NCBI GenBank assembly: GCA_022432975.1
Contig: CM039515.1
Span: 19,223,554 to 19,287,553 of the forward strand
From: Begonia masoniana
Taxonomy: Eukaryota > Streptophyta > Magnoliopsida > Cucurbitales > Begoniaceae
Direction: 5' to 3'
Length of the DNA: 64,000 nucleotides
The translations under genes were made by a program, and so were the position numbers. Under the pieces are notes generated by a model. That model saw only the letters and a list, made by a program, of their open reading frames with translations. It had not been told where the DNA came from and did no database searches. Shown here in pieces: positions 20,176 to 62,107 of the stretch; position 1 is the stretch's first letter, and each line of letters starts with the position of its first letter.

Positions 20176-21503
20176 TGTTAGGTTAGTCTAAGTGTAACGA
20201 CCCCGACCCTCTCCAAGGCCGTCACAGGACTTGACTTTACATTGACTTAACCTTGACCTAAGCCCTCGTATTTTCACGTAAAATTTTTCATTTTTACTTA
20301 ACACTTTAAAAGAAAACAAACTTAGACAATTGACCCACCTCTATCGACCTTTAGGGGCTAACTTTTACTTAGACATTTTGAGCGTAAATTAATTTGACTT
20401 TTAAAACATTTAAAACGAGGCTAAAACTATTTTTCGATAAAGTGTCGGCTCGGTTTTTGGGTCCTTAAAGTCCTTTAAAATGCGTGGGGGTCGCTCGTAA
20501 AATATGTTTAAAAAGTATCGTAAAAAGTCGGGTTGAAACGTGTTTTGGAAAGTAAATTTTTAAAAAATCATTTTTGGTCTCGGGTGGTGCGGCACGCAAC
20601 GCCCAAACAGCGCGCACGCTGACGCTGCGCGCAACGCGTGCGCACAGAGCGCTGATCGATCGGCAGGCTCTTTTCCCACACGATCGTATCCTAGCGCACG
20701 CGGCGATCGATCGGCGCTGTGCTCCCAGCGCGCCTACCGCGCGCGCCCAGTGTGCTCTCCGCACCTCATGCACGGCTCCCATCATCTTTTCACCACATTT
20801 TTCATCTTTTCCCTCTTCCTTCACCTACACTTCACCCATAAACTTTTCTAAAACATTTCTAAACATAAAATACCTCGAACCTAAAAATCTCGACTTAAAA
20901 TGGCCCCCAAAAATGTATCCGAAAACGTATTTAAAATTCAAGAAAAACAAACTGCGTGGATTGCTCTAAAAACCGAGCATATCCTTACAAATTTAAAAAC
21001 ATCCAAACAACTCTAGTAAATTTTCCAAATAAAGACTTCACATCCTAAACGTTCTACTCTCACAACATTCACATAAAAACTTGACTTTTCATACATTTTT
21101 CTATTAAAACATTCTATCCACATACATAAACATTCTCGTTCACTTCCTTAAACAAAACGAATACTTACCCATTCACAAAACTAACGCATACACATAATAA
21201 CCCAAGATACGTACCCCTACTAACCACGGTCGGAATCGCCCTAACAATATTGCCGGGTTGACGTCATGGTCGTACTCCTCCAACTGCGTCTGTAATCCTA
21301 GCAATCTCGTGAAATCTCACCGTGCTGCTCTTCTTCACCTACATCACAGAACTCAAACTATAAGCTTAATGCTTAGCAAGTAATGCAATTATGAATTTAA
21401 AAAATTTAACTTAACATATACAGTTTCTACTGTTTCATCGTACATAATCATTTCGTTTCTGTTTCTACCATTTCCATCGTTTCGATCATTCATACATGTA
21501 ATC

Positions 21504-22886
21504 TGTTGACTTAAATAAGTTTAAGTCTAAATATGTTTTTGATGATGTATTTGAATGATAAGTAAGTAATTTGATTATGTTTATAAAATGAGAATATTGA
21601 ATTATGCATTGATTTTAATCCTGTGGAAATACCCTTGAAAAGGGTATTTTAGTTGTCTAATGAATCGGGTTAAGTGTACAGGGCTAAATAACTTATTCAA
21701 AGGTTACATCTGCCGATGAGTTTCAAAGTGCTTCTGCCGACGGGATTTGAAGCAACACATACCGATGGCAATCGCTAAACGACAAAGAAAATATCTCTTC
21801 TGCCGATGGCATCCAAAGCCTGCATCTGCCGATGACATATCAACTTGCATCTACCGATGGCGCTGTCAAGTTTGCACCTGCCGATGGACTTCAAGGCGTG
21901 TATCTGCAGATGGCTTTTCAAGCCTGCATCTGCCGATGGCACTTGAAGCTGTATCTGCCGATGGCACTTGAAGCTGTATCTGCCGATCGCACTTGAAGTT
22001 GTATCTGCCGATCGCGTTTTAAAGCTGCATCTCCCGATAGCGTTTGGAGATGCATCTGCCGATGGCGCTGCCAAGATTGCATCTGCCGATGGACTTCAAA
22101 GCTTGCATCTGCCGAAGACTTATCGTGTTGCATCTACCGTGGAGTTTGTGAAGATACTCATGCCGATAGCTTTTAAAGCTGCTTCCACCGATGATCTTCC
22201 GCCAGAATTCAAAATAGTCGCGAAGCTACAGTGACGTCGTTTTCAGCATTAACTCCAGAACTTTAATGGCGACGACGACTTGCAACCACAGACGGCAACG
22301 GCTACCTGATCTAGTACGGATGCTTCCCAATGGTAACATTTTCCATTTGAAGAAAGAAGCTTTCAATTCTGAGCTAAAAAATAAGACAGAGTATTTAAGC
22401 CGAGGTTAGAGCACGAAAATCCAACTTTTTTGCGAATATTCATTGCTGAGCCCTAACTTGAAATTATTCATACTCTGTGATATTATCTACATCTCTCCTC
22501 ACCAAAACTTGATTCCGTTTTTGAGAGTTTGTAGATTATTGTAATCTGTGATTCAAATCTGAAAACCCTGTAAGGCAGTGGATTGACGCCCGTAAAGTTC
22601 AATCCAGGATTGTGTAAGGCTGTGGATCGAAGCCCGAAAAGTTTGATCAGCATTTCTCGTTGAGGAGAAGTAAGGAATCTTCAAGGGGAGCCTTGGAGCG
22701 TGGACGTAGGCAGTTTGGCCGAACCACGTTAAAAACTGTGGTGTTGAATTTTCTCTCACTCTCTTTACTTTATTTGATTGTATGCTTTTAGACTTTAAGC
22801 TTCATTCAAGAGAGAAATTGATTTAGAAAATTAAGTTAATTTAAAAAGTCTAATTCACCCCCCTCTTAGACAATATCGATCTTACA
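21504..22886 (+). repeat. 5' LTR of the copia element
   Basis: 1,383 bp, from TGTTGACTTAAATAAG to GATCTTACA. A TATA-like TATTTAA (about 22395) within GACAGAGTATTTAAGCC probably marks the promoter. Positions 21705-22200 hold about fifteen degenerate 26-32-bp units with core CTGCCGATGG, a minisatellite upstream of the TATA box (U3). The same is in the 3' LTR. Confidence 0.9.
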
Positions 22887-22888
22887 AT

Positions 22889-22900
22889 TGGTATCAGAGC
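22889..22900 (+). other. Primer binding site TGGTATCAGAGC (initiator Met tRNA)
   Basis: Two nt after the LTR end. Matches the 3' end of plant initiator Met tRNA, the usual primer of copia elements. Confidence 0.9.
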
Positions 22901-23534: not shown

Positions 23535-24672
23535 TTGGTGGGAGAAAGCCAATGGAGGATCGCCAAGTGGCAACTTGTTGAAGAAGCTAAGCTCTTCCTC
23601 CTACGTGAAACCCTATTCACTTCACTTCCCTGCTCTCTCTCTCTCTCTTTCTCACCTCTGCATTCTCTTTCTCAGTCGACGAACAGCCATCGAAGTTACT
23701 TCGATCTCCTCTGTTCCTTTCTGTTTCTCCGCTAAGGTAAGCATCCTTTAATGCTAACAAGTTTGGATGATGAGTTTTACCGAAGTTTAGGGTTTCGGTA
23801 TTTGGTGAAAACTCTCTGTTTTTGGATGAAAACACACCGGTTTGTTTTCTAAGGGTTTGGATGAGTTTGGAGCAGATTCTACCAACTTACTAGTTAACAT
23901 TTATAGCTATTTAATACCTCTTCATGCATACTATAGGTCCGAGCATTCCAGGGACATTCGAGCATCTGACACCGCAGCAAACAGGTAAGTTCATAACCGT
24001 AGGTTGGCCCTTATGGCCCTACATCACAGAGGTACTAGGGTTCCTGTTCTGTCGGGTAGTTTTGGGTAGAAATGTTATAGCTTCTGTTCAGTTTGTGTTC
24101 TGTGTTGTCTGCTCAGTTCACGTTCTGAATTGTCTGTTTTCTATCTCACAATATGCCCTGTTATTTCTGATGTCTACTGTCATAGGTTCAGGCACTGAGA
24201 ATGTCATGCATACACTGTTTTCCTGAAAATTCATGTAAAAACCGATTTCTGTACACCGTTTGAAACTAATAAGATAAAATCCGACTGAAATGTACCAGGT
24301 TAAGTGCGAGACGGGGACTGGCCACTGAACTGTTACTGTTTACCGTTTACTGTACTGTATCCCTGAATGTGCCTGATAGTGCACCCTCTCCCCTCCCCCA
24401 CTGTACTGTACCCCTGAATGTGCCTGATAGTGCACCCTCCCCCTCCCCCACTGTTTACCAGTTCCCCTATAAGCTCCACTTAATTCTACTGCCACTGTAA
24501 CTTAATGCTCTATACTGTCACCGTATTTCTGAAAAACTGCATGCATAGCATTTTGCATCACTGTATTCTGATTATGTCCTTACTGAGTTTTAGACTCATA
24601 GGTGAACTCTCTGATGTAGGTACTGAACCTGAAACCGAGGACCTTGTTCCTCAAAATGATGATCTGATGTAA
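23535..24672 (+). pseudogene. LTR D three-exon mini-ORF, frame lost at first junction
   Basis: Candidate exons: 23535-23736 (ATG; MVGESQWRIAKWQLVEEA), 23937-23984 (48 nt) and 24620-24672 (stop TAA). Exons 2 and 3 join in the shared phase to GTFEHLTPQQTGTEPETED followed by LVPQNDDLM and stop. In exon 1 a TAA occurs one nt before the donor (CGC TAA G/GTAAGC), so translation from the ATG would end there unless another start or site is used. Splice signals are good (CTAAG/GTAAGC, ACTATAG, ACAG/GTAAGT, GATGTAG). Confidence 0.45.
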
Positions 24673-24939: not shown

Positions 24940-24972
24940 CATGGATAGCCTCGAATTCTAGAGCTATCCATG
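24940..24972 (+). other. Conserved hairpin in LTR D
   Basis: CATGGATAG (24940-24948) pairs perfectly with CTATCCATG (24964-24972). The same hairpin, with changed stem bases, occurs in LTR C at 56851-56877 and 61376-61402, at the same place downstream of the third exon. Confidence 0.6.
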
Positions 24973-30569: not shown

Positions 30570-30782
30570 GAATGTGTAATAATATATCACAATCTAAACT
30601 CTCTCAAAGAATAATTCTCAAGTTTGGTTTCGAGAGGAGTAGATGAAATACAGAGTATGAATATTTCAAGTTAGGGCTCAGCAATGAATATTCGCAAAAA
30701 AGTTGGATCTTCGTGCTCTAACCTCGGCTTAAATACTCTGTCTTATCACCCCAAAAGGGCATTTATGAACTGGGGGGTAATC

Positions 30783-31190: not shown

Positions 31191-31194
31191 GGGC

Positions 31195-36736: not shown

Positions 36737-36777
36737 TTCTACCCTCCTTATTCAGAATTTTGTCCACAAAATTTAAA

Positions 36778-40222: not shown

Positions 40223-43200
40223 TGTAACACCCCTAATACTGTACCCTTATTTTACCCGTATAAATTTTTCATTTTCATTTTTGTACTTATTTCTTTCCTC
40301 TACTTTAATTAAAGCCTTATGCGGAATTTAAACTATGGTTGAAATCGGAACTGAATCGGAATTAAAACTGAACCTTAAATGCATTTAAAACAAATCTTTA
40401 TTAAAACTTAAAAGAAAACCTTTAAAAGAAAACTTTAAATTAAATTAAACAAGTGGGAGGGCAGAATTGGAACTCTGTCCTCAAAATGAAACAGGCGACC
40501 GATCTCTGCACTGCAGCAGAGATCGATCGCTGCCATGCATTACAGTAGGGGCGATCGATCTCTGCTGCAGAGCAGAGATCGATCGCTGCTAGCTGTGCAG
40601 CAATCCGATCGCTGCTAACTATAGCAGCGATCGATCTCTGCTCTGCAGCAGAGATCGATCGCTGCAAGCATGCAGCGATCCCTTCTCCCTTTCAGACTTC
40701 AAACCTCTAACACTTCGCATTTCACAAGCAGCGACCGATCTCTGCATTGCTGCAGAGATCGATCGCCGCACACTTTCAGTGCAACGATCAGTGAAAACTT
40801 CAGCGACCACTTCAGCGACCACCTCCTACTTCAATCGCCTTCACTTTTCTTTACACTGCTCTCTGGAATTCCAGAGAGCAAACACTTAACAATACTCTCT
40901 GGAATTCCAATTCCAGAGAGCGATTCATGCTACTGGAAACTCTCTGGAACCTGATTCCAGAGAGCAAACATTACTTAATTTAACACCAATTTCTTCCAAT
41001 AACATCGACCAACTTTACAGCGGACTTTGCGAAATCCGACTGCGTGGATGCATCTAAACATCGAGCATAACCGTATCAACCTAAAACCAATCAGAACATT
41101 TCCATAACATTCATTAAACAGTTTAAACCAAAACGTTTTACATACAATTATCAAAACGTTATCTAATCCCTATCCAGATCCAAACAACCTAAATATTCTA
41201 TACAATTATCAACTCAAAACATCCCAAAATAACCCCAGAGTCCAGACATACATCCCCACGGGTCAGAAAGCACCTCGACTACATAGCGCACTCCCACGGC
41301 CGTCATCCATCAACTGCATCAGACGGAGGAACGCCGTCCTCACCTAGTTCGATATCACCTAAGAGGTTACCTACACCATACAGACACATATGAGATATTG
41401 AAATCTCAGTAAGCTACGTAAATGCAGATGCATGCGTGCGTATGCCATTCAGAAATCATGCTCAGATTCAGATTACAGATACAGAATTACAGATTACAGA
41501 TTCATTTTCATTCCTTTCAGATACAGAAACAGATACAGATACAGATTCAGATTACAGATGCAGAATTACAGATTACAGATTCATTACGTCACAGACAGAC
41601 AGAATTGTCACCGAAACCTCGACCCACTAACCCAAGGGGGCCCGTCCGGCGGTTGGACTACCCCGTGGGGTTAGAGAGGGGGGGTACACGCTTGCAACAC
41701 GCACAGCCGTGCCTGAGCCCCATCTCGCATGACCAGAAACAGACAGATTACGTTTATTCATTCAGATTACGTTACAGATTTCATTTCAGATATACGTCCC
41801 ATTCAGATTACAGATACAGAATTACAGATTACAGATTCATTACGTCACAGACAGACAGAATTGTCACCGAAACCTCGACCCACTAACCCAAGGGGGCCCG
41901 TCCGGCGGTTGGACTACCCCGTGGGGTTAGAGAGGGGGGGTACACGCTTGCAACACGCACAGCCGTGCCTGAGCCCCATCTCGCATGACCAGAAACAGAC
42001 AGATTACGTTTATTCATTCAGATTTCGTTACAGATTTCATTTCAGATATACGTTCCTTTTCTTAAAAACACGTGCAGAAATTCCTTTTCATGACTTTCGA
42101 AAACCGTGATGCATGAACAGTTCATATCAGCGGAAAGTAAACAAACAACGTGCATACATTCATGGCAGTAAAGCAGAACCTATAAACAACTAACCTAACT
42201 ACCCAACCAGAGTAACATAAAACAAACAGTTCCTCGAGTATTCCCGAGACGACGACGAAGTATGGTGCAGACCTTTGGGTCAAAGTAAGTCACGAAAACT
42301 TACCTGGAGCGCGCTGGATCTCAACTTCGTCCACGGGAGTCGCGTGTCTGAGACAAAACACGATATTTGTCGTTAAACCCAATTTAAACGATTAAATGTC
42401 CAAACTAATAAAATCCTTAATTCAACAAATCGAAGCTTTTAAACAACGACACAACGCTCGATAAATCTGGAATTCCATATTACGAGTTATTTCCGAAAAC
42501 TCGAAAATATAACGATTTATAACTTTTTCGCAAATAAATTTCTCTTCGTCCAATAACGTCCAATACGTTCAATTTACACGTAATCACGGCTAACCTATTA
42601 ATTACGAGTCCTAATTTCGACATTTTATCGAAACCCTAGTTTGCCGAAATGCTACAAACGTCGAAATAAAGCTATAAGATTAAAGGCACATACCGAGGGT
42701 AGCGAGAGAGGAAGAAAACGTGAAGGACGGAGGAAGAACGGAGGTCGGACGGAGGTCGGATTGTGAGGAGTCGCCGGCGGCCGAGAGAAGAAAGCCTTCT
42801 CTGTTCGTGCGATCCAGAGAGAAAAGAGAGAAAGAGAGAAAGTGAGGGAAAAGAAATGTTTTGTGATGTTTTATAAAATGGATTTGCAAATTACCATTTT
42901 GCCCTTAGCTCTTGTTTCGTCCTTCGTTTCATTAATCGTCCAACGATTCGGATTCTCGAAAACTCCATATTTTGCCAATAACTCATATTCATCACCAGGG
43001 CTTTATTAAAACTGTCCGTTCGAAATTTGGACTTCATTCACTATTTTTACTAAAACGTCATTTAATTTACGATAGTGGTAATTACTCGGAATATAGCGTT
43101 ACTATTCCGAAAATTCCCAAAACTTCCTTAAAATCCTTTTTAATCGTTAGAATCGTAATGACGCTTTCCATTTGCGAAACTGACTTGATTTGACATATTT

Positions 43201-43278
43201 AATAAAAATGCCTCATATAATATCTATATATGAATATAATATATTAAATCCAAAAGTCCGTACGAACCGGATATTACA
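40223..43278 (-). repeat. Gypsy A 5' LTR
   Basis: Same landmarks as the 3' LTR, but with one additional 48-bp palindromic unit (about 40630-40677) carrying CGATCGATCTCTGC and GCAGAGATCGATCG. Splice-like sites (minus): exon 1 from ATG 42889 to donor at 42694, exon 2 42347-42304 (44 nt), exon 3 from 41370. Exon 1 is in the shared phase here, but exon 2 is one base shorter than in LTRs B and C, so the joined frame ends early; exon 3 still carries the PGEDGVPPSDA tail in the frame used elsewhere. Confidence 0.88.
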
Positions 43279-45644: not shown

Positions 45645-47095
45645 TAATCCTCTACCAATGGAGGGCAGATTAGTTTCTCCATCTCTAGACGTTCCACAAC
45701 TTCATCTAAAGGGTGAACCACTCCCTTCAGACGTTACATATTTACATGGTTGTAGTTTCTTCATTCTACTCGTGCAAACACATGCTTAAAACATTTTCGT
45801 ATCTTTTCTAAAACATGATGCATAAACAAATTAAACATACATAGAAACATGCAACATAACCTAACGTTCTGTGATGTAGGCCAAAAAGGCAACGTACATG
45901 CATACACTACTTACCTGGCGTCCTTAGCAATTTATCTCTATCAGAACTCTTAATCGTGGAACCTGAAAAACCTAAACATCAAAATATTGCGTTAGAACTC
46001 GCTCGGCATAACTAAACTCTCATTTTTGTGAAACATCTCGAGTGAAATAAATCCTTTACCGACATCTCAAAACATAATCCTCACGTCCATAATTAAATCG
46101 GAGCTCAATTCCTCATAAATTCTATCCAAATCCATTCAACTATTCATTTAGGCAATTTATCGAACACTTCACGTGCACATTTTCAATCACAAATTCCTCC
46201 CTAATCCGACATCCGATCTCAACAATTCAAACGCCTATACGCCACCCATAACGTCTACTTTAATATGCCACAGCTAATTCTCAAACCACACTTAGCGATC
46301 AAGCCTAGAAATTTTGAATTCTAATATACATTAAAACGATATTTCTAAACACTAAAATCCAACTCTATATCCATATTCAAATTAAAAATCATCAATAACT
46401 ATTAATCTTTCATCAATAACCATCAATACATCAAAGCTAACGATTTCTAACAAAAATGTAAATTTACACAAACCCTAAATCGATAAAACCTAACGAATAA
46501 CAATCCCAAATCGACAACTAAACCCCAATATGCTAGAGTCTTCCCTAGAGGGTTGAATCGTCGAAGAAAACGGAGGAGAAACTTCGTTGAATCGTCGGCG
46601 TGAGAGAGTTTGGTTGCGGGAGGGAGAAATCGCAAAACAGGGGGGGGGGGAATGCTCTCTGGCGTGGAGAAGGAGAAGTGAGGGAGGGGGGAATATTTTT
46701 CTTTTTATTAAAAATCAACATGCAAATTACTATTTTGCCCTTTGCTTAATATTTTGCTTAACTCGTTATTTTGTCTATCGATTTGGTTTCTTCGAAATTT
46801 TCTTTTTACTCCAAATATTCCAACTTATTCCTAGGGTCCTAACGAAACTTTTCATTCGCAAAACAGACTTATTTTACTATTTTTACGAATTAACATACTA
46901 AAAGCCTAAAACGAGAACTCTAGCATTACTCTTTCAATTTGGATTTCTAAAATTTCACTTATTCCTGTAAAAATCCTCATAAATTCCTAGGGCTCTAATG
47001 AAACCTCCCGCTTGCAAAACGGGATTAAATTACATATTTATAAAAATAACCCTAGAAATCAGAAAATCTGAAAACCCGAAAACCCAGGTTTTACA

Positions 47096-47701: not shown

Positions 47702-50218
47702 GGTAACACCCAGCTTTTCTGGATATTATGATTTTAATATATAATGGTATTTTTTGTAAATATGTCAAATCAAGTCCGTTTTACGAAAAGAAAGCGTTAT
47801 TAGAATTCTAACGATTAATTGAAATTTTAAGAAATTTACGAGAATTTTCGGAGTAATAACGCTTAATTCCGAGTAATTACGTATCTCGTAATATAAAAGA
47901 CGTTTTAGTAAAAATAGAAAACGAGGTCCGATTTGCGAACAGACAGTTTTATTAAATCCTAGATAATAAGTCTGAGTCAATGGTGAAATAAAGAAATTTG
48001 GAGAAACCGAATCGCTAGCCAATTAATGAAACGAAGGACGAAACAAATAGAAAATCAAAGGAAGGGCAAAATAATAATTTGCAAAGTTAATTTTAATTAA
48101 AATCACTCATCTCTCTTCTCTCCCTCATTTGTTCTCTGCTCCGCGAAAACCAGAGAGGGTTTTTGGCAATCCTCACGTACGCCGCCGACGATTCTCCTTC
48201 AACCGACGCCGACTCCTCCTCCGATCAACGCCGTTCCTTCACGTTTCCTTCCCCAATCGACGCTCTAGGTAAGATTCCGTAGTTTTGGTACGTTAGATTT
48301 CAATTTCTAGGATTTATGGTGATTAGGGTTTCGTTTAGGATTTCGTTAAAAATGTCGATTAGGGTTCGTAATAGATAGATTTACTGTAATTATAGATATA
48401 AAGGACGTATTGAGCATTATTAGACGAAGTTAATAGATTCATTTAGAAATATGAGAATTCGTTAATTTTAGGGTTTTTGAGAAACTTGTTAATGAGGTGT
48501 TAAGCATGGAATGCTCGATATAATGCCTCAACGAATTGAATTAGAATTTTAGGAGATTTCTTTAGTTAAGGTTTTGTTAGTTTGGCGGTTTAACGGATTT
48601 AGCTCGTATTAACGACAACCATTGTAAATTGGCTTAGGTGAACAAGGCTCACGGACGGCGCTCGAATTGCTAAGGACATCAGGTAAGTTCTCGTGACTTG
48701 CTGTGGCCGATAGGCCTACACCATATGTCGTGTTTCGTTGTCGAGGATATTTGGAGTTACGTGTGTTCATTCGCTTTGTTTGGGTAGTTTAGGGTTAGGC
48801 CTTTTATAGGTTATGCTTGTATTGTTTGATGGTATGCACTTTGTATGTTTATGTTACGCTCGTATTGTCATGCATAATTGTTTTATAAACGTCATGAAAA
48901 CGAATTTATGCATGAATTCATGAAAGAAAAGGAAATGTGATGACATGAAATGAGACGACTTACATGAGATGACTATGACGACTAAAATGAGATGACTATG
49001 ACGACTAAAATGAGACGACTATGACGACTTACATGAGACAACTTACATGAGACGACTATATGATAAATGAATGCATGATATGATAAATGAATGTATGATA
49101 TGATAAATGAAATAAATGTACGATATGATAAATGAATGCACGATATGATAAATGAAATGAATGCACGGGAACTTATGAAAATTGCATATACATGTTCATG
49201 CATTGTCATTTACGTAGAATTTACTGAGATTTATTCTCATAGGCATCCTTATGGTGTAGGTGAACCTGAAACAGGTGAGGAAGACGTTCCTCTGTTAGAT
49301 GATCACGCTGGTTGATGAAGGATGCCCGTGGGGAGTGCGCTGGCGTAGTGGGTGCGATTTTGACCCGTGGGGATGTAAGTAAACATTTTGTGGGTTGGAT
49401 AGATAGAAACGTAGGAAGATTGTAAAGATAGAACATTTTAGGATGTTTGGTTCTGACTAGTTGAAAGATAAATGTTTTAATGTTTTTAACGTTTGGAAAC
49501 TTATTTTATAAACGTTTTGATGATTTTGAAGTTTTAATGGAACTGTTGGGTCTTGAACTTTGTAGGGATTTTGTATAGTTTTGAACGTATCTATGTAGTT
49601 GTTTTCACGAATTTTATTACGCTTTTAAGTACGTTCTAGGATAGGCTATGGGTCAATTTTTCGGTGATTGATAAAATGAAAAAACGAGTTAAGATATGTT
49701 GAAGTGTTAGAGTGTATGTGTAGGAGATTGAATTGTGCAGGGAATGGAAAATGTACGGAGGAAATGTGATGTTTTGCTCTCTGGAAGTTCTGATTACAGA
49801 GAGCATGTTAGGCATTTTATACACGCCAGAGTGAGTGGCTACCGATCGCCGAAATGGGCTAGCGATCGCCTGATTGCTGCAGAGACTGGGCGCGCGAGTG
49901 AGGGGCGACTGATCGCTCCTCCTGTTTGTAGCTTCGGCGATCGATCTCCTGAATTTGGAGATCGATCGCCCTTCCCTTTCTTTGGCAGAGTTACGTTTCT
50001 GCCCTCTGCTTTGTTTTAATTGTTTTTATTAATTGTTTAATTAATTTGTTTTAAGTTTTATTTAATTGATTTAGGATTTTGTTTTAAACGATTTTCTAAA
50101 CGAACTTCGATTTCGATTTGATTTCCGCTTAAATTCCACTTAGAGTTTATTTGAAGTATAGAGAAAAAAAAAGAAAAGTAATGTGGAAAAATAAGGGTAC
50201 AGTGTTAGGGTCGCTACA
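47702..50218 (+). mobile_element. LTR B: 5' LTR of a plus-strand gypsy element
   Basis: About 2.5 kb, from a degenerate start (GGTAACACCCAGC) to GTTAGGGTCGCTACA, followed by a mutated primer site (TATGATATCAGAGTACCC) and a gag. It aligns by landmarks with gypsy A and LTR C. Intron 2 holds ATGACGACTAAAATGAGACG-type and GATATGATAAATGAATG-type tandem repeats (48930-49165). Terminal part has GCGATCGATCTCC...GGAGATCGATCGCC (49935-49970). Splice-like exons: end of exon 1 at 48268, exon 2 48638-48682, exon 3 49260-49315 (stop TGA). The joined frame reads EQGSRTALELLRTSGEPETG then EEDVPLLDDHAG, but no in-frame ATG is seen in exon 1. Confidence 0.85.
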
Positions 50219-50811
50219 ACTTATGATATCAGAGTACCCGGGTTTTAAAATCGGTTCTGTAGACTGCTCGACTGCGCAAGGCACTACACGGACATGCTTC
50301 CTCAACTGTAAGTACGTTTAAATGCTTTATGTGATTTAAATTTCTTAGGATTATTTGTTTTAACCCTTATAGGAATTATAAAATGGTCCGAGGTAGAGAC
50401 GCTAGGGACGAAACCCTAAATAGACTGACGGATTTATTGGATCGTCAGGCCCAACATATGGACAGGCAGGTGCAGCAAATTGAGAGCCTGGTAGGCCGTG
50501 TGAACCAGATAGCTCAAGATACAGTCTTTCCAAACAGTAGCAGTATGGGGAGGTTCCAGATGTTGCGACCTCCGATTTTCTACGGACAGTCTTCCGACCC
50601 CTCTATTGCTGAGGAGTGGGTTTGGATTATGGAAGGCATGTTGTCATATGCGGGGATAGAGAACGAGAATAAAGTTGCCTACGTCACTTTTCATTTGGCG
50701 ATGGATGCTCGGTTGGTGGGACTCCATCAAAGCAACAACCGATGTTACAGTAATGACTTGAGAGCGGTTTAAAGCTATATTTTATGATAGATACTTTAGC
50801 CATACGGTACG

Positions 50812-53136
50812 TGTAACACCCGCGAATTTAGAATTAATTAAATGAGGGATATTATAATTACTTAATAAAATAGTTGTTTTAATTAAAAGTGACTTAAACG
50901 TTTATTAATTATGTTTGGGTATTTCTTGGGAAATTAAGCCGTGGATTATAATTTAAGAGCGAGATTTATCGAAAGTCGAAATGGTCGGAAACACGGGAGG
51001 TCAAAACGGTAATTGAGGATTAATTAACGGTTATTATTATTATTATTATTATTTAATTTAAAAAAAAAAAAACTAAAAACACAACAGAATGGCCGAAGCC
51101 ATTCTGACGTGTTCAAGCACCCGAGGGAACAGGGGAGAGGGGAGGGAGAGTCGCCGATTCTCCGCCGCGGTTTCCGGCGTTCTCCGGCCAGCTCCGACCA
51201 GACGACGACGGCGAATCAAGGGCGAGCATCTTCGGCCCTTCTCCGCGCACGAATTGAACGGTAAGTCCCTTTTTTTTGTGCCCTGTTTCGGTTCGGTCGT
51301 GGCCGAGGGTGAGGAGCGACCTTGAGCTCCGATCGCCGGCCGAAATGGGCTGCTTCCGGCGTGGGTTTGCCAACCCTTGGACCGTCTTCCATCACCTGGC
51401 TGTGATGAGCCCGAATTGAGTGAAAAATCCGAGAACCCGATTTAGGGCATTTCGGGTTTTGTGTGTAGCTCGGGATTTTTGGTTAGTTTATACTAATTAA
51501 GGGTATATAAGGTTGATTGGTGAGGAAATGAGGGAGAATTGAGGGAAAATTGGAAAAGGGAAATTTTCGGGTTAAGGGGGCAGTTCGGGTTTTGAGAGTT
51601 TTGACCTAGCTAGGGTCGGTTATTTTAAAATTACTTTTGGCAGATTAAAATAGGTTATTAGAGGAGTACGTGGCCGCTGGAATCGTTCGATTCCGAAAAC
51701 CGACGTGAAAGTTATGCACGTTTGAAGTTTTGGGTCGGTTTTTACCGAACCCAAATTGGTGGCCCATTTAGTTAGGCTTTCATTGGATTAGGCTAGAAAT
51801 AGGAGTTTGAGAGTAATTAGTAGATGTAGGCTTGATTTTAATGGTTTGATGAATATTTATCGTAGGTCGAGCTGTAGATGGACAGGTAATCGAGTACCCT
51901 CAGCGAGCTAGGACGCCAGGTAAGTAGTGGAATGCGTGTTTGTTGCCTTCGGGCCTACACCATAGAACGGTAGGGATTGGTTGCTTGTTTGCTGTGCTTT
52001 GCTTTCTGTTATGCATTGTGTGTCATGCATCGTTGTTTTCTAACTACGAAACCACGTGTTTTGCATGTTTGAGTGGTGGGGATGAAATGGAAGATAAGAA
52101 ATGATTTGCAACTTGGTCTCAAGTAGAATAGCCTCGTCGGGCAAGTGGTTCGCTGAGCACCCCGCGGGGGATTTTACTTGAGATGCCCTGCTAATGTATG
52201 TAATGTGTCGTGAGTATGAATTACTCGACCTGTTCGTGCTTGAAGTGCACAATGAGGATTCTACGATCGATTGAGGGAGATTCGTGTTGGCTGTCCTGGA
52301 CTGTGTTGGGACGTGTGCCTCCGGTCTAGCTCCGTGAATCAAGGCGTGACCGTCCTGGACTGTGTGGGGGCGTGTGCCTACTTGATTCACCTGAAAGTGA
52401 AAGATAAATGCAACCGAAATGAAAAGAAAGCAACAGAGTGTGTAGAAACTGCATGTTAGGGTTGAGTCGAGCATTTAGTGTGTGGTTGTGCATTATTTCC
52501 CTACTTGCTAAGCATTAGGCTTACTTTTGTGTTCTATGGTGTAGGTGGCGCGATTTACTCAGGAGAGGTAGATGAGACAGCCCAGGACTAGACAGCAGTT
52601 GGTGGTGCATGGAGCATGCCGGTGCAGGCAGTTGTCGGGGCGCCTCGACCATGGTCTTCGGGAGAATGTGGGTTTTGTATTTTGGTAGTATTGTAAATGT
52701 CTACTTATAAGTTGATGGAAATGTGTAGTTCTTTTTGGGTGGATGTCTGATATGTATTCGTTGTAAATAGTCATAGGTCAGGGTGAAGTGTTACCCTATA
52801 TTGTGGGCATTTCTTTATTTTGGTTAGATGGTTAGGAATATTCTGGATTGTTTGGGGATTGACTTATTGCAGGTACCTAGCATTTTGGAGGCGCCATTTA
52901 CAGGCGTTACTTTGCCGAAATTTTCGGGAAGAACGCCGTGGTGCTTAAAGGTTAGGAGTAAGGGAATTAGTGAGTCTAGGCAGCTAGGTATGATATAAGA
53001 GAGCCTTGGGAGATTTAGTTTTAAGTCAGCTGCGTCAGTTTCCTTTTATGCTTGTGAGTTTATGAAAATTTCGTTTTAACGTGGAAATGGTTAGCATAGT
53101 AGCTCTCTGAGCCAGGGTGGGTTCGGGGGCGTTACA
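50812..53136 (+). mobile_element. LTR F: solo gypsy LTR
   Basis: 2,325 bp, TGTAACACCCGCGAATTTAG to GGGGGCGTTACA, flanked by GTACG (50807-50811, 53137-53141), inside gag B. No interior accompanies it. It carries the most complete example of the shared internal mini-ORF (51089-52591). Its exon-1 region is GC-rich, unlike the surroundings. Part of it recurs at 57097-57664. Confidence 0.92.
51089..52591 (+). CDS. Putative spliced 90-aa ORF inside LTR F
   Basis: Candidate exons 51089-51260 (172 nt, ATG in exon 1), 51866-51919 (54 nt) and 52545-52591 (47 nt, stop TAG). All four splice sites fit plant consensus (GAACG/GTAAGT, ATCGTAG, CCAG/GTAAGT, GGTGTAG) and both introns are phase 1 (605 and 625 bp). 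The joined frame has 91 codons with stop: a basic N-terminus (MAEAILTCSSTRGNRGEGRE, later RRRRRIKGE), a central VIEYPQRARTPGG and an acidic tail SGEVDETAQD. No family is recognised. The same exon layout and phases occur in LTRs B, C and E, and partly in A and D. Product, expression and function are unknown. Alternatives: a captured host gene fragment, or a non-coding spliced leader whose frame is open by chance. Confidence 0.45.
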
Positions 53137-53820
53137 GTACGGGAGGCAAAAATGATGGAGTTCATGCAATTGACACAGACTGGCTCAATTGCTGAATACA
53201 TCAGGAGGTTTGAGGCCCTATCCCGATTTGCACCACGCCAGGTTAGTGTTAATGAGGATAAGGTGCGTCGGTTTATGCAAGGGCTAGGCCAGGAAATCCG
53301 AAAGAATGTCGTCATATCAGGGGTGCGGAGTGTGCCCTATACAGAAATTGTGGCAAGAGTTCTAGAGATTGAGACAGCTGAACCAACTTACGTCAAACCG
53401 AGAGAGCCAGCAAATGGGTTCTTTCGGGAGATCCAGCCTCGACCTCAGAATGAGATTTGGCAGCTAAGAGGGCAACAACAGTAGCAACGTAGGGGCGTTA
53501 AGAGGCCTTATAACGAAAAGGGCGACCAGGGAAGTGGAAAGAAAATTCAGGGATCTACTGAGAGGCTCGTATGCCGGAAGTGCCAGAAGGCCCATTTTGG
53601 CATGTGTAGATTGGGGACGGACCGATGTTTTAGATGTGGCGAGGTGGGTCACTACGCCCATAATTGTCCAAAGACGGTTACCAATCAGAATCCGGTTACC
53701 CCGAGGATGTTCGACTTCATTGAGCAGGGTAACGTCGATGATGAGGCCAGACCTTCAGCTATTTCAGGTATGGTTTTATGTCAACTGTTAATTAAAAAAA
53801 AAGGGTGTAGTGTAGAGTGA

Positions 53821-55023: not shown

Positions 55024-56996
55024 TGTAATACCCGGTTGTACGGACTTGTATATTATATTATTATTATATTATCGGATGACATTTTTATATTTATGTCAAA
55101 TCAGGTCCGTTTTACAAAAAGAAAGCGTCACTACGATCCTAACGATTAATAGGAATTTTAAGGAAATTATGGGAATTTTCGGAGATTAAACACTATATTC
55201 CGAGCAATTAAGCTTTTCATAATATGAAGGACGTTTTAGTAAAAATAGTAAACGAAGTCCAAATTGCGAACAGACAGTTTTAGTAAATCCCAAATAATAA
55301 GTTGGACTTGTTGGTGAAATTAGGAGGTTTGGTGAACCCGACTAGTTGGACGATTAACGAACCGAATGACGAAACAAAATAGAATTAAGTGCTAAGGGCA
55401 AAACGGTAATTTGCAAAGTAAATTTTTATTAAAAACCTTAAACTCTTTCTTCCTTCTTCATTTTCACGCCAGAGAACATTTCTTCTTTTCTTTCTCGCGA
55501 TCTCCTCTCTGCCCGCAACAAACCCTTCGACGCTGAACTCCGTTTTCTCTCCCGATCGTCTCGTTTTCTTCACGCTTCCTCCTCCAATCGACGTTCTAGG
55601 TATGAACCTACAATCTTAGAGCTTCTATTTCGATATTTACGGCGTTCTAGGCAATTAGGGTTTCGAGAATCTTTCGTTAAAAACGCGAATTAGGGTTCGT
55701 AATTAATAGGTTAGCCGTGATTAAGTATGTATTGCACGTATCTGACGTTATTGGACGAAGTTAAAACAAATTTGAGAATGTTAAAAATTAGGGATTTTCG
55801 AGAGTTTAGGAATAACTCGTAAATTGGAATTTACGGTGCTGAGCGCGAATTGCTTGAATAATAGCCCAATGAATTGGATTAGAACTTTAGGAAGTTCCTT
55901 AGTTAAGGTTTTGTAAATTTGGACGATCGATAGCTTAAACTCGTTTTAACGTCGATATTGTGTTTTGCTTCAGACAAACAACGCTCGTGGACGGAGCTTG
56001 AGCTGCTTTGGACACGAGGTAAGTTCTCGTGATTCTTCTCTGGCTGATTGGCCTACACCGTACGTCGAATGTCGTCTCGAGAGTTTTGGAGATGCGTTTA
56101 TTTAATGTTTACTTGGTTTGGGTAGCTAGGTTTTAGGAGTTTATAGTTTACGCTTTACAGTCTTGAAGGTACATATTATTGCTTGTTTACTGTAAGATAT
56201 TGAACTGTTCACGCATCACTGTTTTTAAAGAAAAGCATGAAAAACGAATTTCCGCACGAAGTTTTAAAGATAACGTAAAGCATTGCATTGGCCGAAAGGC
56301 TTATTGGCCGAAAGGCGTATTAAGCATAGCATTGGCCGAAAGGCTTATTGGCCGAAAGGCGTATTGGTCACGCGAGGTGGGGCTCAGGCACGGCTGTACG
56401 TGTTGTAAGCGTGAACCCTCCGCCTCTAGCTGGAAAGAGTAGTCCGCCCGCTGGATGAGCTCTCTCCGGTTAGAGGGATAGGATCTCGGTGACACCTATT
56501 GAGCATTGCATAGTAAGATAAAATAAAGCATGATTTATCGAACTCATACGCACAGCATGCATTGCATTTACGTAGAGCTTACTGGGATTTTATCTCATAG
56601 GTGTTGTATGGTGTAGGTGACATAGACTTCGAGGTACCAGGTGAGGACGATGTCCCTCCACCTGAGGCATGAGTCAGTTGACGGAGGATGGCTGCGGAGG
56701 TGTGCTGGCGCAGTCGAGGCTCACCTGACCCGTGGGGATTGTTTGGTTCTGGTAGTTGATAGGTTTACATTTGAATGTTTTGGGTAAATTGTTTATAAAA
56801 AAGTATTTAAACGTTATAGAAATGTTTTGGAAATGTTGTAGGTTGGATACGGATAAGCTCGATTTTTAGAGCTATCCATGCAGTTGGATTTCGCAAAGTC
56901 CGCTGTGGGTTGATTGAGTTTAAAATACGTTATAAACTGATACTTTGTTAGGAGTAGGTTGAATTGTGTTAGGTTGAAGTGTGTTGGTTGCTCTTG
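55024..56996 (+). mobile_element. LTR C, first (truncated) copy before the gap
   Basis: TGTAATACCCGGTTGTACGG onward; identical apart from a few substitutions to 59549-61519. It stops at GGTTGCTCTTG where the second copy continues into a GCTCTCTGGAATCCAGAGAGC hairpin, i.e. the contig breaks at the palindrome array. Splice-like exons: exon 1 end 55599, exon 2 55974-56018, exon 3 56617-56672. A TTGGCCGAAAGGC tandem repeat (56286-56366) is in intron 2. Confidence 0.85.
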
Positions 56997-57096
56997 NNNN
57001 NNNNNNNNNNNNNNNNNNNNNNNNNNNNNNNNNNNNNNNNNNNNNNNNNNNNNNNNNNNNNNNNNNNNNNNNNNNNNNNNNNNNNNNNNNNNNNNN
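56997..57096. other. Assembly gap of exactly 100 N
   Basis: A round-number gap of unknown real size. The sequence to its right begins inside LTR F (matching 52566 onward), the sequence to its left ends inside LTR C. Confidence 0.99.
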
Positions 57097-60000
57097 AGGT
57101 AGTGAGACAGCCCAGGACTAGACAGCAGTTGGTGGTGCATGGAGCATGCCGGTGCAGGCAGTTGTCGGGCGCCTCGACCATGGTCTTCGGGAGAATGTGG
57201 GTTTTGTATTTTGGTAGTATTGTAAATGTCTACTTATAAGTTGATGGAAATGTGTAGTTCTTTTTGGGTGGATGTCTGATATGTATTCGTTGTAAATAGT
57301 CATAGGTCAGGGTGAAGTGTTACCCTATATTGTGGGCATTTCTTTATTTTGGTTAGATGGTTAGGAATATTCTGGATTGTTTGGGGATTGACTTATTGCA
57401 GGTACCTAGCATTTTGGAGGCGCCATTTACAGGCGTTACTTTGCCGAAATTTTCGGGAAGAACGCCGTGGTGCTTAAAGGTTAGGAGTAAGGGAATTAGT
57501 GAGTCTAGGCAGCTAGGTATGATATAAGAGAGCCTTGGGAGATTTAGTTTTAAGTCAGCTGCGTCAGTTTCCTTTTATGCTTGTGAGTTTATGAAAATTT
57601 CGTTTAACGTGGAAATGGTTAGCATAGTAGCTCTCTGAGCCAGGGTGGGTTCGGGGGCGTTACAGTACGGGAGGCAAAAATGATGGAGTTCATGCAATTG
57701 ACACAGACTGGCTCAATTGCTGAATACATCAGGAGGTTTGAGGCCCTATCCCGATTTGCACCACGCCAGGTTAGTGTTAATGAGGATAAGGTGCGTCGGT
57801 TTATGCAAGGGCTAGGCCAGGAAATCCGAAAGAATGTCGTCATATCAGGGGTGCGGAGTGTGCCCTATACAGAAATTGTGGCAAGAGTTCTAGAGATTGA
57901 GACAGCTGAACCAACTTACGTCAAACCGAGAGAGCCAGCAAATGGGTTCTTTCGGGAGATCCAGCCTCGACCTCAGAATGAGATTTGGCAGCTAAGAGGG
58001 CAACAACAGTAGCAACGTAGGGGCGTTAAGAGGCCTTATAACGAAAAGGGCGACCAGGGAAGTGGAAAGAAAATTCAGGGATCTACTGAGAGGCTCGTAT
58101 GCCGGAAGTGCCAGAAGGCCCATTTTGGCATGTGTAGATTGGGGACGGACCGATGTTTTAGATGTGGCGAGGTGGGTCACTACGCCCATAATTGTCCAAA
58201 GACGGTTACCAATCAGAATCCGGTTACCCCGAGGATGTTCGACTTCATTGAGCAGGGTAACGTCGATGATGAGGCCAGACCTTCAGCTATTTCAGGTATG
58301 GTTTTATGTCAACTGTTAATTAAAAAAAAAGGGTGTAGTGTAGAGTGAGGATTTGAGTGTAATAATTGTGCGATAGATAAAGGTAGGTTTGAAAATAGAG
58401 AGGTAAGAGAATAGTAGGTTAGATATAGGATGATATAGACCTTGTAGAAAGAGAGTTATACGTTAATAAGATTAATCTGACTTAATCGTGAGGAGATGTG
58501 CACTTAGAATTTAGTTACCATTAGAGAGGTAAAATTTATGAGATGTGAGATTTGAGTAGATAGAAACTAGACCCTAATTGATAGGCCCTCGGAGTTTTAG
58601 AATATGACGCTTAAGAGAGAAATTTAAAACTTAGTTATAAAAACTTATTGAGGAAATATCCTAGATTGTCAAAGTACAATGGTACATCTAAGTGAATAGA
58701 GGACCGGTAAGAACTAGTATAATTTAGATCCGCGTGAGATTGAAAATATTAAGACGAAAGCAATATTCGAAAGAGAAGTGGCTCTTACTCCAAAATTTTA
58801 GAGATTGTGAATGACCAATATGGAGTTGTAGACGAAAGATTTAGGCATGGCTTATACGTGTTCGTACTAGCCCATGCCCGCGAAGAAAATAAAAGGATCA
58901 AACCCGGATTGGAATGTTGATAAATTTCGTAGGCATTGAGGGACGAGTAAAGTGTAGACAAAGGCTGGACAATTTTAGAAACCCAAATGTTTTAGTTAAT
59001 CGAAGAAGGGTTTAACACCTTAAATTTAAAATTATGTTTAAAGGTTAAGTGTGACGTGTGTAGCGTCAGGAGAAATAGCGAATTGACAAGAGGGGATGTC
59101 ACTTGGAGAAAAGGTGGCAAGGTAAGAAGTTGCCATGGGTCTATAGATAGTACAGTTCAAGTTAAGGATCACGGCCTGAGGCTTACCTCCGGGATGGTAG
59201 TAGAAACATCTGTGCTCGAGGAACTAGGAGGATAAACCTTAACAAAGTGACGTTTCAAGTTATTGGAAAACAGAAGTGAAGAATTTGAGAAATTAAGTGA
59301 TGATTGACTAAGTGAAGTCGATGGATGTGCGAGTAATTGAGCGGTAAGGTGCATAGTTGGAAAGGGTTAGAATTTTGGGAACGTAGGAATTGTCAGTGCT
59401 CAGTAGGTGGCTAAGGCCATAGGGTACTTGGCAATGGTGTTACAACCATAATTAAGAGGGTAGCGTTGAAACGAGTAATTTGAAAAAAATAAAAAAAATA
59501 AAAAAATATAGTCAACGTTTTCCGTTAACTGTCCCGGAGTGACGACTTTGTAATACCCGGTTGTACGGACTTGTATATTATATTATTATTATATTATCGG
59601 ATGACATTTTTATATTTATGTCAAATTAGGTCCGTTTTACGAAAAGAAAGCGTCACTACGATCCTAACGATTAATAGGAATTTTAAGGAAATTATGGGAA
59701 TTTTCGGAGATTAAACACTATATTCCGAGCAATTAAGCTTTTCATAATATGAAGGACGTTTTAGTAAAAATAGTAAACGAAGTCCAAATTGCGAACAGAC
59801 AGTTTTAGTAAATCCCAAATAATAAGTTGGACTTGTTGGTGAAATTAAGAGGTTTGGTGAACCCGAATAGTTGGACGATTAACGAACCGAATGACGAAAC
59901 AAAATAGAATTAAGTGCTAAGGGCAAAACAGTAATTTGTAAAGTAAATTTTTATTAAAAACCTTAAACTCTTTCTTCCTTCTTCATTTTCACGCCAGAGA

Positions 60001-61519
60001 ACATTTCTTCTTTTCTTTCTCGCGATCTCCTCTCTGCCCGCAACAAACCCTTCGACGCTGAACTCCGTTTTCTCTCCCGATCGTCTCGTTTTCTTCACGC
60101 TTCCTCCTCCAATCGACGTTCTAGGTATGAACCTACAATCTTAGAGCTTCTATTTCGATATTTACGGCGTTCTAGGCAATTAGGGTTTCGAGAATCTTTC
60201 GTTAAAAACGCGAATTAGGGTTCGTAATTAATAGGTTAGCCGTGATTAAGTATGTATTGCACGTATCTGACGTTATTGGACGAAGTTAAAACAAATTTGA
60301 GAATGTTAAAAATTAGGGATTTTCGAGAGTTTAGGAATAACTCGTAAATTGGAATTTACGGTGCTGAGCGCGAATTGCTTGAATAATAGCCCAATGAATT
60401 GGATTAGAACTTTAGGAAGTTCCTTAGTTAAGGTTTTGTAAATTTGGACGATCGATAGCTTAAACTCGTTTTAACGTCGATATTGTGTTTTGCTTCAGAC
60501 AAACAACGCTCGTGGACGGAGCTTGAGCTGCTTTGGACACGAGGTAAGTTCTCGTGATTCTTCTCTGGCCGATTGGCCTACACCGTACGTCGAATGTCGT
60601 CTCGAGAGTTTTGGAGATGCGTTTATTTAATGTTTACTTGGTTTGGGTAGCTAGGTTTTAGGAGTTTATAGTTTACGCTTTACAGTCTTGAAGGTACATA
60701 TTATTGCTTGTTTACTGTAAGATATTGAACTGTTCACGCATCACTGTTTTTAAAGAAAAGCATGAAAAACGAATTTCCGCACGAAGTTTTAAAGATAACG
60801 TAAAGCATTGCATTGGCCGAAAGGCTTATTGGCCGAAAGGCGTATTAAGCATAGCATTGGCCGAAAGGCTTATTGGCCGAAAGGCGTATTGGTCACGCGA
60901 GGTGGGGCTCAGGCACGGCTGTACGTGTTGTAAGCGTGAACCCTCCGCCTCTAGCTGGAAAGAGTAGTCCGCCCGCTGGATGAGCTCTCTCCGGTTAGAG
61001 GGATAGGATCTCGGTGACACCTATTGAGCATTGCATAGTAAGATAAAATAAAGCATGATTTATCGAACTCATACGCACAGCATGCATTGCATTTACGTAG
61101 AGCTTACTGGGATTTTATCTCATAGGTGTTGTATGGTGTAGGTGACATAGACTTCGAGGTACCAGGTGAGGACGATGTCCCTCCACCTGAGGCATGAGTC
61201 AGTTGACGGAGGATGGCTGCGGAGGTGTGCTGGCGCAGTCGAGGCTCACCTGACCCGTGGGGATTGTTTGGTTCTGGTAGTTGATAGGTTTACATTTGAA
61301 TGTTTTGGGTAAATTGTTTATAAAAAAGTATTTAAACGTTATAGAAATGTTTTGGAAATGTTGTAGGTTGGATACGGATAAGCTCGATTTTTAGAGCTAT
61401 CCATGCAGTTGGATTTCGCAAAGTCCGCTGTGGGTTGATTGAGTTTAAAATACGTTATAAACTGATACTTTGTTAGGAGTAGGTTGAATTGTGTTAGGTT
61501 GAATTGTGTTGGTTGCTCT
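57097..61519 (+). repeat. Second copy of 52566-56996 (probable contig overlap)
   Basis: Carries in the same order the LTR F tail (57097-57664), GTACG and gag B part (57665-58348), non-coding interior (58349-59548) and LTR C (from 59549). Differences are a handful of single-base changes and short homopolymer indels. See findings for why this is probably not a real tandem duplication. Confidence 0.95.
57665..58348 (+). pseudogene. Gypsy B gag, second copy
   Basis: Same as 53137-53820, including the in-frame TAG (58010) and the CCHC knuckle. Listed separately only because the sequence is present twice. Confidence 0.85.
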
Positions 61520-62107
61520 CTGGAATCCAGAGAGCACTTGTGAAAATAAAGGAAACAGAGAAGAAGAGAAAACAGAAGAGAAAATAGAAGGGATCGCGTG
61601 GTGATCGCTGCATAGAGTGCAGCGATCGATCTCTGGCTTGCTAGCTGCAGCGATCGATCTCTGCAGCAATGCAGAGATCGATCGCTGCTTGCTAGCATAT
61701 GCAGCGATCGATCTCTGCATTGCTGCAGAGATCGATCGCTGCAGCATGCAGTGCATGCAGTGCATGCAGCGATCGATCTCTGCATTGCTGCAGAGATCGA
61801 TCGCTGCAGCATGCAGTGCATGCAGCGATCAGTCGCTGCATGCTGCAGCGACTGAGCGCGGCCTCCTTTCCTCGGGCAGAATGTCAATTCTGCCCTCCCC
61901 TTTTATTTTAATCGAAATTAGTTTTAAATAATGGTTTTATTTAATTTGTTTTAAGTTGTTTTAAATGGTTTTAAACTTAGATTTTAATTCCGATTTCGAT
62001 TTTGGTTTCGTTTTCGGTTTAGGTTCCGCCCAGTGTTTAATTAAAGATATTAGGTTAAAAAAAAAATATGGTACGGAAAATACGGGTACAGTATTAGGGT
62101 CGTGACA
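59549..62107 (+). mobile_element. LTR C: 5' LTR of gypsy element C
   Basis: 2,559 bp, TGTAATACCCGG to GTTAGGTCGTGACA-like end (62107), followed by a good primer site and gag, so it is the 5' LTR. Splice-like exons: exon 1 end 60124, exon 2 60499-60543, exon 3 61142-61197 (TGA). Exons join in the shared phase to DKQRSWTELELLWTRG and then DIDFEVPGEDDVPPPEA. The exon-1 frame is open (…TLPPPIDVL) but without ATG. TTGGCCGAAAGGC repeats lie in intron 2 (60812-60890). Hairpin 61376-61402. Palindrome array 61513-61860. Confidence 0.88.
61513..61860. repeat. Palindromic GATCGATC array in LTR C
   Basis: GCTCTCTGGAATCCAGAGAGC (61514-61534) is a 21-nt palindrome. From 61618 there are three or four inverted pairs of GCAGCGATCGATCTCTGC with GCAGAGATCGATCGCTGC, separated by GCATGCAGTGCATGCAG. 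Every unit can fold on itself or pair with its neighbours. Confidence 0.9.

Follow-up and report, generated by a model that had tools for sequence, protein, structure and literature searches.

A putative spliced small gene with a base-paired acceptor in the long terminal repeats of an abundant Begonia masoniana retrotransposon group

The DNA analyzed here (the window) is a stretch of 64,000 nucleotides (nt) from Begonia masoniana (GenBank assembly GCA_022432975.1, contig CM039515.1, positions 19,223,554 to 19,287,553) that contains six diverged long terminal repeats (LTRs), named A to F, of gypsy-type retrotransposons. In the predicted second intron of these LTRs, the 3' acceptor can pair with an element close to the donor, forming a stem called P1, and two helices of this intron, P1 and P3, show compensatory changes. 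We propose that the LTR holds a small spliced gene with a non-AUG start, the acceptor of which would be masked in RNA bound for reverse transcription. We assign this reading a probability of roughly 0.48.

The proposed gene would consist of exon 1, poor in ATG and mostly rich in pyrimidines, a mini-exon that keeps the frame, and exon 3, which would end with an acidic tail of about 15 residues followed by a stop. P1 would pair an element beginning at intron base 32-34 with the acceptor and bury its AG, with a second helix, P2, abutting P1 and P3 placed at the probable branch region. With P1 closed, intron 2 would be retained and the full-length RNA could enter packaging and reverse transcription without losing its LTR introns. 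With P1 open, splicing would yield an mRNA for the acidic-tailed protein, with translation starting at a non-AUG codon. What we infer from sequence is that splicing takes place, that P1 masks the acceptor instead of aiding it, where translation starts and what the protein might do.

Architecture of the LTRs and pairing of the second acceptor

The first-pass annotation of this DNA had described six diverged gypsy-type LTRs sharing an exon 1, a mini-exon of 44-54 nt and an exon 3. This description holds: all six mini-exons lie where it had placed them, on the plus strand in B (48638..48682, 45 nt), C (60499..60543, 45 nt), D (23937..23984, 48 nt) and F (51866..51919, 54 nt), and on the minus strand in A (42304..42347, 44 nt) and E (45915..45962, 48 nt). 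Each is preceded directly by AG and followed directly by GTAAGT. The signals are of spliceosomal type, GTAAGT serving as the intron-2 donor in six of six LTRs and a branch-like CTTRCTNAG being found upstream of TGTAGGTRA. Two details held only in part. The acceptor motif (A/T)TG(G/A)TGTAG is present in A, B, C and F, whereas D reads CTGATGTAG and E reads GTGATGTAG, both failing at the first letter; exon 1 meets a GT at intron 1 in five of the six LTRs, whereas the exon-1 donor of E reads GG. The layout in B (plus strand) has a CT-rich exon 1 devoid of ATG at 48104..48268, the start of which is the assumed transcription start site, intron 1 at 48269..48637, a 577-nt intron 2 at 48683..49259, and the exon 3 tail GEPETGEEDVPLLDDHAG with its stop at 49260..49315. 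The tail of C is GDIDFEVPGEDDVPPPEA, with its stop (61142..61197, plus strand), and intron 2 of A (41371..42303, minus strand) measures 933 nt and contains a 256-nt tandem duplication.

These signals recur throughout the host assembly, which was searched over its 795,452,319 bases. The pattern GGTAAGT-N15-40-CCTACAYCAYA, covering donor 2, the P2 space and the P1 5' strand, has 27,319 exact matches (13,719 + 13,600), against a single one (0 + 1) for the reversed control. The pattern CTTRCTNAG-N20-36-TGTAGGTRA, covering the branch region, P3 and acceptor 2, has 41,178 exact matches (20,566 + 20,612), against seven (3 + 4) for its control; both counts are of sites and not of independent families, and among the matches listed all lie on one contig.

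In all six LTRs, an element beginning at intron base 32-34 reads as the reverse complement of acceptor 2, which gives P1 a length of 12-17 base pairs (bp). When the donor-proximal 64 nt were compared with 41-101 AGs per LTR, the true acceptor was the top partner in six of six. The scores of acceptor and runner-up were 26.5 and 24.0 in A, 27.5 and 20.0 in B, 29.5 and 24 in C, 28 and 18.0 in D, 37.5 and 35.0 in E, and 38.0 and 20.5 in F, so that the margin is narrow in A and E and wide in D and F. The identical test on intron 1 gave no stem, its acceptor ranking 34/47 in A, 32/69 in B, 66/90 in C, 34/63 in D, 76/97 in E and 75/93 in F. On the plus strand, the 5' strand of P1 and its 3' strand at acceptor 2 lie at 48714..48725 and 49250..49261 in B, at 60576..60589 and 61130..61143 in C, at 24018..24031 and 24607..24620 in D (one C.C mismatch), and at 51953..51969 and 52530..52546 in F (17 bp including 2 GU). 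On the minus strand, the stem of A pairs 42260..42272 with 41369..41381 (13 bp including 3 GU) and that of E pairs 45866..45881 with 21337..21352; since a copia element splits LTR E, its acceptor 2, at 21339, lies past the insertion. The stem comes in several variants, CACCATA and its complement being common to A, B and F, while C has CACCGTA, and D and E have CATCACA.

Covariation in P1 was examined on 101 donor sites from the window and from fetched loci, of which 90 were unique. TGTAGGTRA was present within 2 kb at 54 unique sites and the 36 others were dropped, which left 33 distinct strand pairs, the window contributing only LTR C. Position 6 is C-G in 19 of these pairs and T-A in 14, and position 9 is T-A in 16, C-G in 11, GU in 3 and unpaired in 3; pairing is absent at position 11 in 10 and at position 13 in 12. 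Over positions 6-13 the summed score was 222.5 vs 190.2±4.9 after shuffling, a value reached by 0 of 2000 re-pairings; kinship between copies inflates every shuffle test, this one included, and the first six pairs of P1 are fixed by the choice of sites (CCTRCA, TGTAGG).

P3, a hairpin of five base pairs, coincides with the probable branch region and reads TGAGA-TTTAT-TCTCA in B (49225..49239, plus strand). The anchor motif was found in 54 of 54 sites with 25 distinct hairpins, the second pair of which is G-C in 13, A-T in 6, T-A in 4 and A.C in 2. In a swap test on 29 distinct sequences, in which the loop was optimized for swapped arms as well as for real ones, the score was 130.5 vs 111.0±3.2 (0 of 5000), and full pairing was seen in 14 of 29 own arms vs 35 of 700 swapped ones. 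A second set of 77 distinct strings, obtained with a pattern that leaves this base free, yielded 16 distinct arm pairs with the same exchanges; the shuffle test on these 77 strings optimized the loop for the real arms alone. The weakest helix is P2, a short hairpin next to P1; for many of the 50 P2 forms, the automatic search proposed a different helix. P2 is mostly GGCC/GGCC or GCC/GGC, as in B (GGCC-GATA-GGCC, 48705..48716, plus strand), and GGCT/AGCC in copies L004 and L068. In partition-function calculations on whole introns shorter than 1000 nt, P1 had a probability >0.5 in 39 of 51 ensembles.

Most simply, an AG buried in P1 would keep intron 2 in the RNA. The main rival is that P1 is a bridge, which would loop out a long and variable intron, bring donor and acceptor together and promote splicing, in the manner of the yeast RPS17B zipper. 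Such a role would suit a stem that runs from intron base 32-34 to the acceptor of an intron of variable length: among 24 B-type copies, the length ranges from 494 to 1486 nt in the 17 with a located acceptor, the other 7 showing none within the stretch examined. However, the AG of the acceptor itself is part of P1, which in contrast to the RPS17B stem lies 3' of the probable branch region, and a bridge would have no need to bury the AG. We therefore regard the bridge as rather unlikely.

Introns located in R or U5 survive reverse transcription only from an unspliced template, as established for retroviruses, and the copied RNA should therefore keep them. The joined junction AAGGANNCCAGGTGAAGA, the one junction type searched, has no match in the genome, 3 of the 90 sampled unique sites being able to yield it. 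Alternatively, P1-P3 could be a packaging or dimerisation structure of the unspliced RNA, restricted to that RNA by its intronic position: the elements are intronic in six of six LTRs, and the RNA that was copied appears unspliced, given that no genomic copy of the junction was found. Nevertheless, a packaging signal would be free to sit anywhere, whereas P1 lies exactly at the acceptor and P3 at the probable branch region, and we consider this explanation unlikely.

Several results of this part weigh against a masked acceptor in a spliced gene. The absence of spliced copies is equally expected without any splicing. P1 was not favored in 12 of 51 native introns, and its mean probability was 0.69 after loop shuffling vs 0.72 in native introns; as shuffling leaves the mean unchanged, the intron loop is not tuned. 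In 55 of the 77 strings, the stretch from P3 to the acceptor contains a further AG. A rarer acceptor, ATAATGTAG, occurs 163 times in the genome, and among 14 such LTRs that were fetched, 12 had the P1 5' strand, with a compensating base in just 2 of the 12 (one of them, L103, read by eye). As these rare acceptors are mostly uncompensated, they fit decay after insertion, and the covariation is one between families. Also, the expectation, set beforehand, that exons would be better conserved than introns was not borne out in A, B and C. Identity among them was 0.52-0.57 in exon 1, 0.45-0.69 in the mini-exon and, for exon 3, 0.62-0.71 over its first 100 nt, vs 0.60-0.70 in intron 1 and 0.75-0.81, 0.51-0.62 and 0.81-0.95 in the first 60 nt, the middle and the last 60 nt of intron 2; U3 reached 0.78-0.79 and the remaining LTR 0.54-0.67. 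The high identity at both ends of intron 2 is accounted for by P1-P3, and the pattern as a whole counts against a purely coding reading. A predicted acceptor for a CATTATG family was also considered and was rejected, the variants being mostly decay.

ATG depletion and coding signal along the predicted exons

The expected numbers of ATG given here come from shuffles that preserve base composition only, and the copies are related. The remark in the first-pass annotation that B and C have no obvious ATG extends to all six LTRs, in which exon 1 and mini-exon are free of ATG except for one in the mini-exon of F (1 in 1179 nt vs 10 expected). At the ends of 82 distinct mini-exons, 5 ATG were observed vs 49.7 expected, and in the first 20 nt of exon 3 there was 1 vs 20.6, later 20- and 50-nt windows of this exon ranging from 0.74- to 2.2-fold. 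Intron 1 had 160 vs 160.1 expected, with 58 vs 78.4 across its end, and two stretches of intron 2 had 304 vs 165.3 and 757 vs 310.2. It is difficult to see what else would make ATG frequency change where the predicted exons begin and end. Across most of intron 2, ATG was enriched 1.8-3.5-fold, the opposite of the exons, with a value of 1.09 in the last 50 nt.

In the proposed phase, the first stop of exon 3 falls on one and the same base in 27 of 58 distinct sequences, as TAG in 12, TGA in 8 and TAA in 7, and 14 more sequences stop nine bases later, all with TGA. For the 27-sequence class, the ratio of nonsynonymous to synonymous differences (pN/pS) was 0.51 (10 disjoint pairs, z 3.18, p 0.0007) vs 1.01 and 1.12 in the shifted frames. 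The tail is acidic, aspartate plus glutamate making up 0.39 of it vs 0.096 when shuffled, and lysine plus arginine 0.027. Thus exon 3 looks coding, with an uneven signal that is clear in the 27-sequence class and weaker over all classes.

The mini-exon behaves differently. Its length is divisible by three in 47 of the 72 distinct mini-exons called from 90 sites (21 of them measuring 45 nt, mostly B-type), and 45 of 72 can be read through in phase 1, vs 18 and 15 in the other phases, counts in which related B-type copies weigh heavily. Its pN/pS was 0.82 in phase vs 0.72 and 0.98 in the other frames, which reveals no residue constraint. Taken together, these values indicate a frame that tends to be kept and residues that are free. 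The dN/dS check suggested in the first-pass annotation came out in favor of constraint for exon 3, in the 27-sequence class, and not for the mini-exon; likewise, the selection that it had supposed on a spliced, possibly coding transcript agrees with the splice signals and with the coding signal of exon 3, but not with the mini-exon residues or with exon versus intron identity. The peptides given for B, C and D were confirmed as written. For A, PGEDGVPPSDA was found in one LTR copy, whereas the copy with the mini-exon at 42347-42304 reads LGEDGVPPSDA. No Pfam match up to E 1 was obtained with three joined leader peptides.

Exon 1 could be located in 49 of the 72 cases. An in-phase ATG is absent in 45 of these 49, and the last 100 nt contain no ATG in any frame in 41. 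The openness of exon 1 carries little weight, since any frame stays open in pyrimidine-rich sequence. With intron 2 retained, an in-phase ATG upstream of the tail is missing from 33 of 58 sequences, and a stop in the same phase lies at most 9 codons upstream of the tail in 18 of 58; in those copies, the tail would be reached only through splicing or from a non-AUG start. The tail would thus imply splicing in many families, not in all.

Alternatively, the tail could belong to an unspliced small frame made of the end of intron 2 and exon 3, at least in B-type LTRs, the splice-like signals having another origin. The in-phase frame upstream of the tail is indeed open over a median of 26 codons vs 5 and 10 in the other frames, and it has an ATG in 25 of 58 sequences, many of them B-type, which also speaks against the spliced gene. 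We nevertheless find this alternative very unlikely, in view of the sequences without ATG or blocked by a nearby stop and of splice signals that recur tens of thousands of times. As a general case, an ATG-started unspliced frame from intron 2 into exon 3 was rejected on the 33 of 58 sequences without in-phase ATG; for B-type LTRs it is possible.

Exon 3 also contains a donor-like CAG|GTGAG at +15/+18 in most families (+24 in C), for example at 49272-49280, where GTGAGG is read. The donor score is at least 7 there in 32 of 51 distinct sequences, vs 1, 1, 0 and 0 in later windows, and the Gly codon GGT is kept in most; the site is a possible alternative donor within the coding tail. Between primer site and gag ATG, C has a putative 65-nt leader intron, GTAAGT...TATAG (62195..62259, plus strand, found by eye), and a similar interval is seen in A and B. 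Both features suggest a further splice to gag, which would skip the tail and perhaps the primer site. A downstream exon 3 donor like that of B (GATGTAAGT) was considered and is not general. A search of four stretches of internal regions for a strong donor joining to the 3' LTR gave two scattered candidates.

These features bear on another explanation, according to which the leader is a non-coding spliced 5' untranslated region (UTR) of gag and the exon 3 tail a regulatory upstream peptide, encoded by an upstream open reading frame with a non-AUG start. It would account for the low ATG content of exon 1, of the mini-exon and of exon 3 over its first 20 nt, for a mini-exon without residue constraint and a coding signal that lies in exon 3 up to the stop, and for the donor-like site and the putative leader intron before the gag ATG. 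Also, plant pararetroviruses have structured leaders, leader splicing and non-AUG starts according to excerpts of PMC5902531. A mini-exon that keeps the frame in 47 of 72 cases, with phase 1 as the open one, goes beyond the needs of a UTR, and we hold this explanation to be doubtful.

For the spliced small gene, the coding evidence has its own difficulties. The predicted spliced frame has no AUG start, so that initiation would have to take place at a near-cognate codon. Over all classes of exon 3, pN/pS was 0.67 (p 0.014) vs 0.82 and 0.82 out of phase, with 1.01 in a control stretch, and the third-position excess in disjoint pairs had p values of 0.36, 0.08 and 0.0012 over three distance ranges. 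Mini-exons were not open in phase 1 in 27 of 72 cases and, as said, show no residue constraint; exon 1 has an in-phase stop at most 18 codons from the junction in 12 of 49, and D has one at the end of its exon 1. The CAG|GTGAG of exon 3 is left unexplained by the model.

A last alternative is that we are dealing with ordinary decayed LTR sequence, in which likeness reflects common ancestry only. The LTRs are all related, many copies are damaged and the rare acceptor variants are mostly uncompensated. Decay would leave aside the compensatory changes in P1 and P3, the three types of stop at one position, the contrast in pN/pS between frames and the ATG depletion that follows the exon borders, and we judge it most improbable.

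Host elements and layout of the window

LTRs A, B and C are about 2.5-3 kb long, as estimated from self-comparison of the window, LTR ends and primer sites. The 5' copy of A (40223..43278, minus strand) is 98% identical to its 3' copy (33730-36736, minus strand), with LTR ends and a primer site past 40223. B spans 47720..50219 (plus strand) with approximate edges, its first LTR bases not being recognized, and is followed by a primer-site-like sequence at 50224 (2 mismatches allowed). C spans 59549..62107 (plus strand), as delimited by self-comparison and LTR ends, and its second copy is shortened (55024-56996). D and F begin at 23350 and 50812 (plus strand), with LTR starts of the same type. 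E is in two parts, 47095-45645 and 21503-20193 (minus strand), around a nested copia element. The near-identical LTR pair of A and the primer binding site after the LTR identify an LTR retrotransposon. The primer site TGGTATCAGAGC, which we take to be of the tRNA-iMet type, directly follows LTRs A and C, and a mismatched form follows B.

The element of LTR A has a CCHC gag piece at its 5' end (Pfam scan) and, adjoining the 3' LTR, Integrase_H2C2 and SH3_Tf2-1 above the Pfam cut-off and rve below it. A Chromo match (E=2.3e-4) reached 21.5 bits, under the cut-off of 25.1 bits. The group is probably of Ty3/gypsy type and a chromovirus, the latter being likely rather than proven since the Chromo match is under the cut-off; it may, tentatively, belong to the Tekay/Del clade. 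In viral collections, the integrase C-terminus of A had no relative, one DNA pattern matched a single contig of unrelated sequence and a second pattern had no match. Rfam gave no match at gathering score anywhere in the window.

The copia element that interrupts LTR E (21504-45644) has LTRs at 21504-22886 and 44256-45644, 97.5% identical, copia gag and reverse transcriptase domains at 25918-29592, and a TAATC repeat on both flanks (read by eye). It appears nested in LTR E and is itself host to further insertions, LTR D among them. A run of 100 N (56997-57096), which comprises all N of the window, separates two 4.43-kb units (52566-56994 and 57097-61519) that are 99.6% identical; this junction is possibly an assembly gap or artefact and not a true tandem. 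A 2.08-kb tandem duplication (30665-34820, 96.9% identical) takes in the end of the 3' LTR of A and its flank. A further hairpin, GGATA(A)GCTCGA..TTTAGAGCTATCC, occurs 3' of exon 3 in D (24943-24969) and in C (near 61387), and a similar sequence is found in E (~20960-20990, minus strand). Palindromic GCAGCGATCGATCTCTGC-type repeat arrays lie near the 3' ends of LTR A (40500-40670) and LTR C (61618-61840).

Comparison with known systems

How transcripts are split between translation and reverse transcription is a major question for retroelements, according to the abstract on BARE (PMC3735527). Here, an abundant group appears to have introns in the LTR itself, inheritable only if the copied RNA stays unspliced, and a covarying stem sits exactly at the acceptor that would need control. 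If our reading is true, the intron 2 stem may sort transcripts into those to be spliced and those to be copied. The DNA signature (donor-P2-P1, P3-acceptor) can be used to annotate tens of thousands of LTR sites. In its widest form, the proposal would make each LTR, even a solo one, a complete regulatory gene with promoter, ATG-poor leader, two introns, non-AUG frame and acidic-tailed product, the gene being present tens of thousands of times in a single plant genome. A stem locking its last acceptor would serve as a retrovirus-like switch, the spliced RNA being a regulatory mRNA and the unspliced one genomic RNA. In this form we hold the proposal to be rather improbable.

Within the accessible portions of the open-licence literature, we found no report of LTR-resident introns of this kind. 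LTR-confined introns with a paired acceptor are not described in the excerpts of PMC12786077, PMC6317226, PMC7730604, PMC3601003, PMC10309623, PMC5902531, PMC3735527 and PMC2536676, and PMC11728184 contains no intron or splicing terms. Tekay elements are absent from the expressed set in the portions available of PMC7730604.

Alternative splicing separates RNA pools of the plant retrotransposons Ogre, EVADE and BARE, as excerpts of PMC12786077, PMC3735527 and PMC6317226 report, the last of which describes the Ogre intron. The two predicted introns here lie entirely within the LTR, and those excerpts describe no structured acceptor. In Cer1 of Caenorhabditis elegans, a spliced retrotransposon mRNA gives CERV, a regulatory protein that unspliced genomic RNA requires for its export (PMC10309623, in part). 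CERV has 517 residues and five exons, of which exons 1-3 are in the gag frame (same excerpt), whereas the frame proposed here is much shorter and would use LTR exons only. The leaders of the plant pararetroviruses cauliflower mosaic virus and rice tungro bacilliform virus are structured, with a splice donor and non-AUG starts (excerpts of PMC5902531). Compared by description only, their structure differs from that of the LTR leader. To our knowledge, plant pararetroviruses have no LTR. In the zipper stem of yeast RPS17B, the partner lies upstream of the branchpoint, whereas the partner here is the acceptor AG. Mouse mammary tumor virus sag and lentiviral nef are frames in or overlapping the LTR that use U3, whereas the frame proposed here would lie downstream of the presumed transcription start site and be split by two introns.

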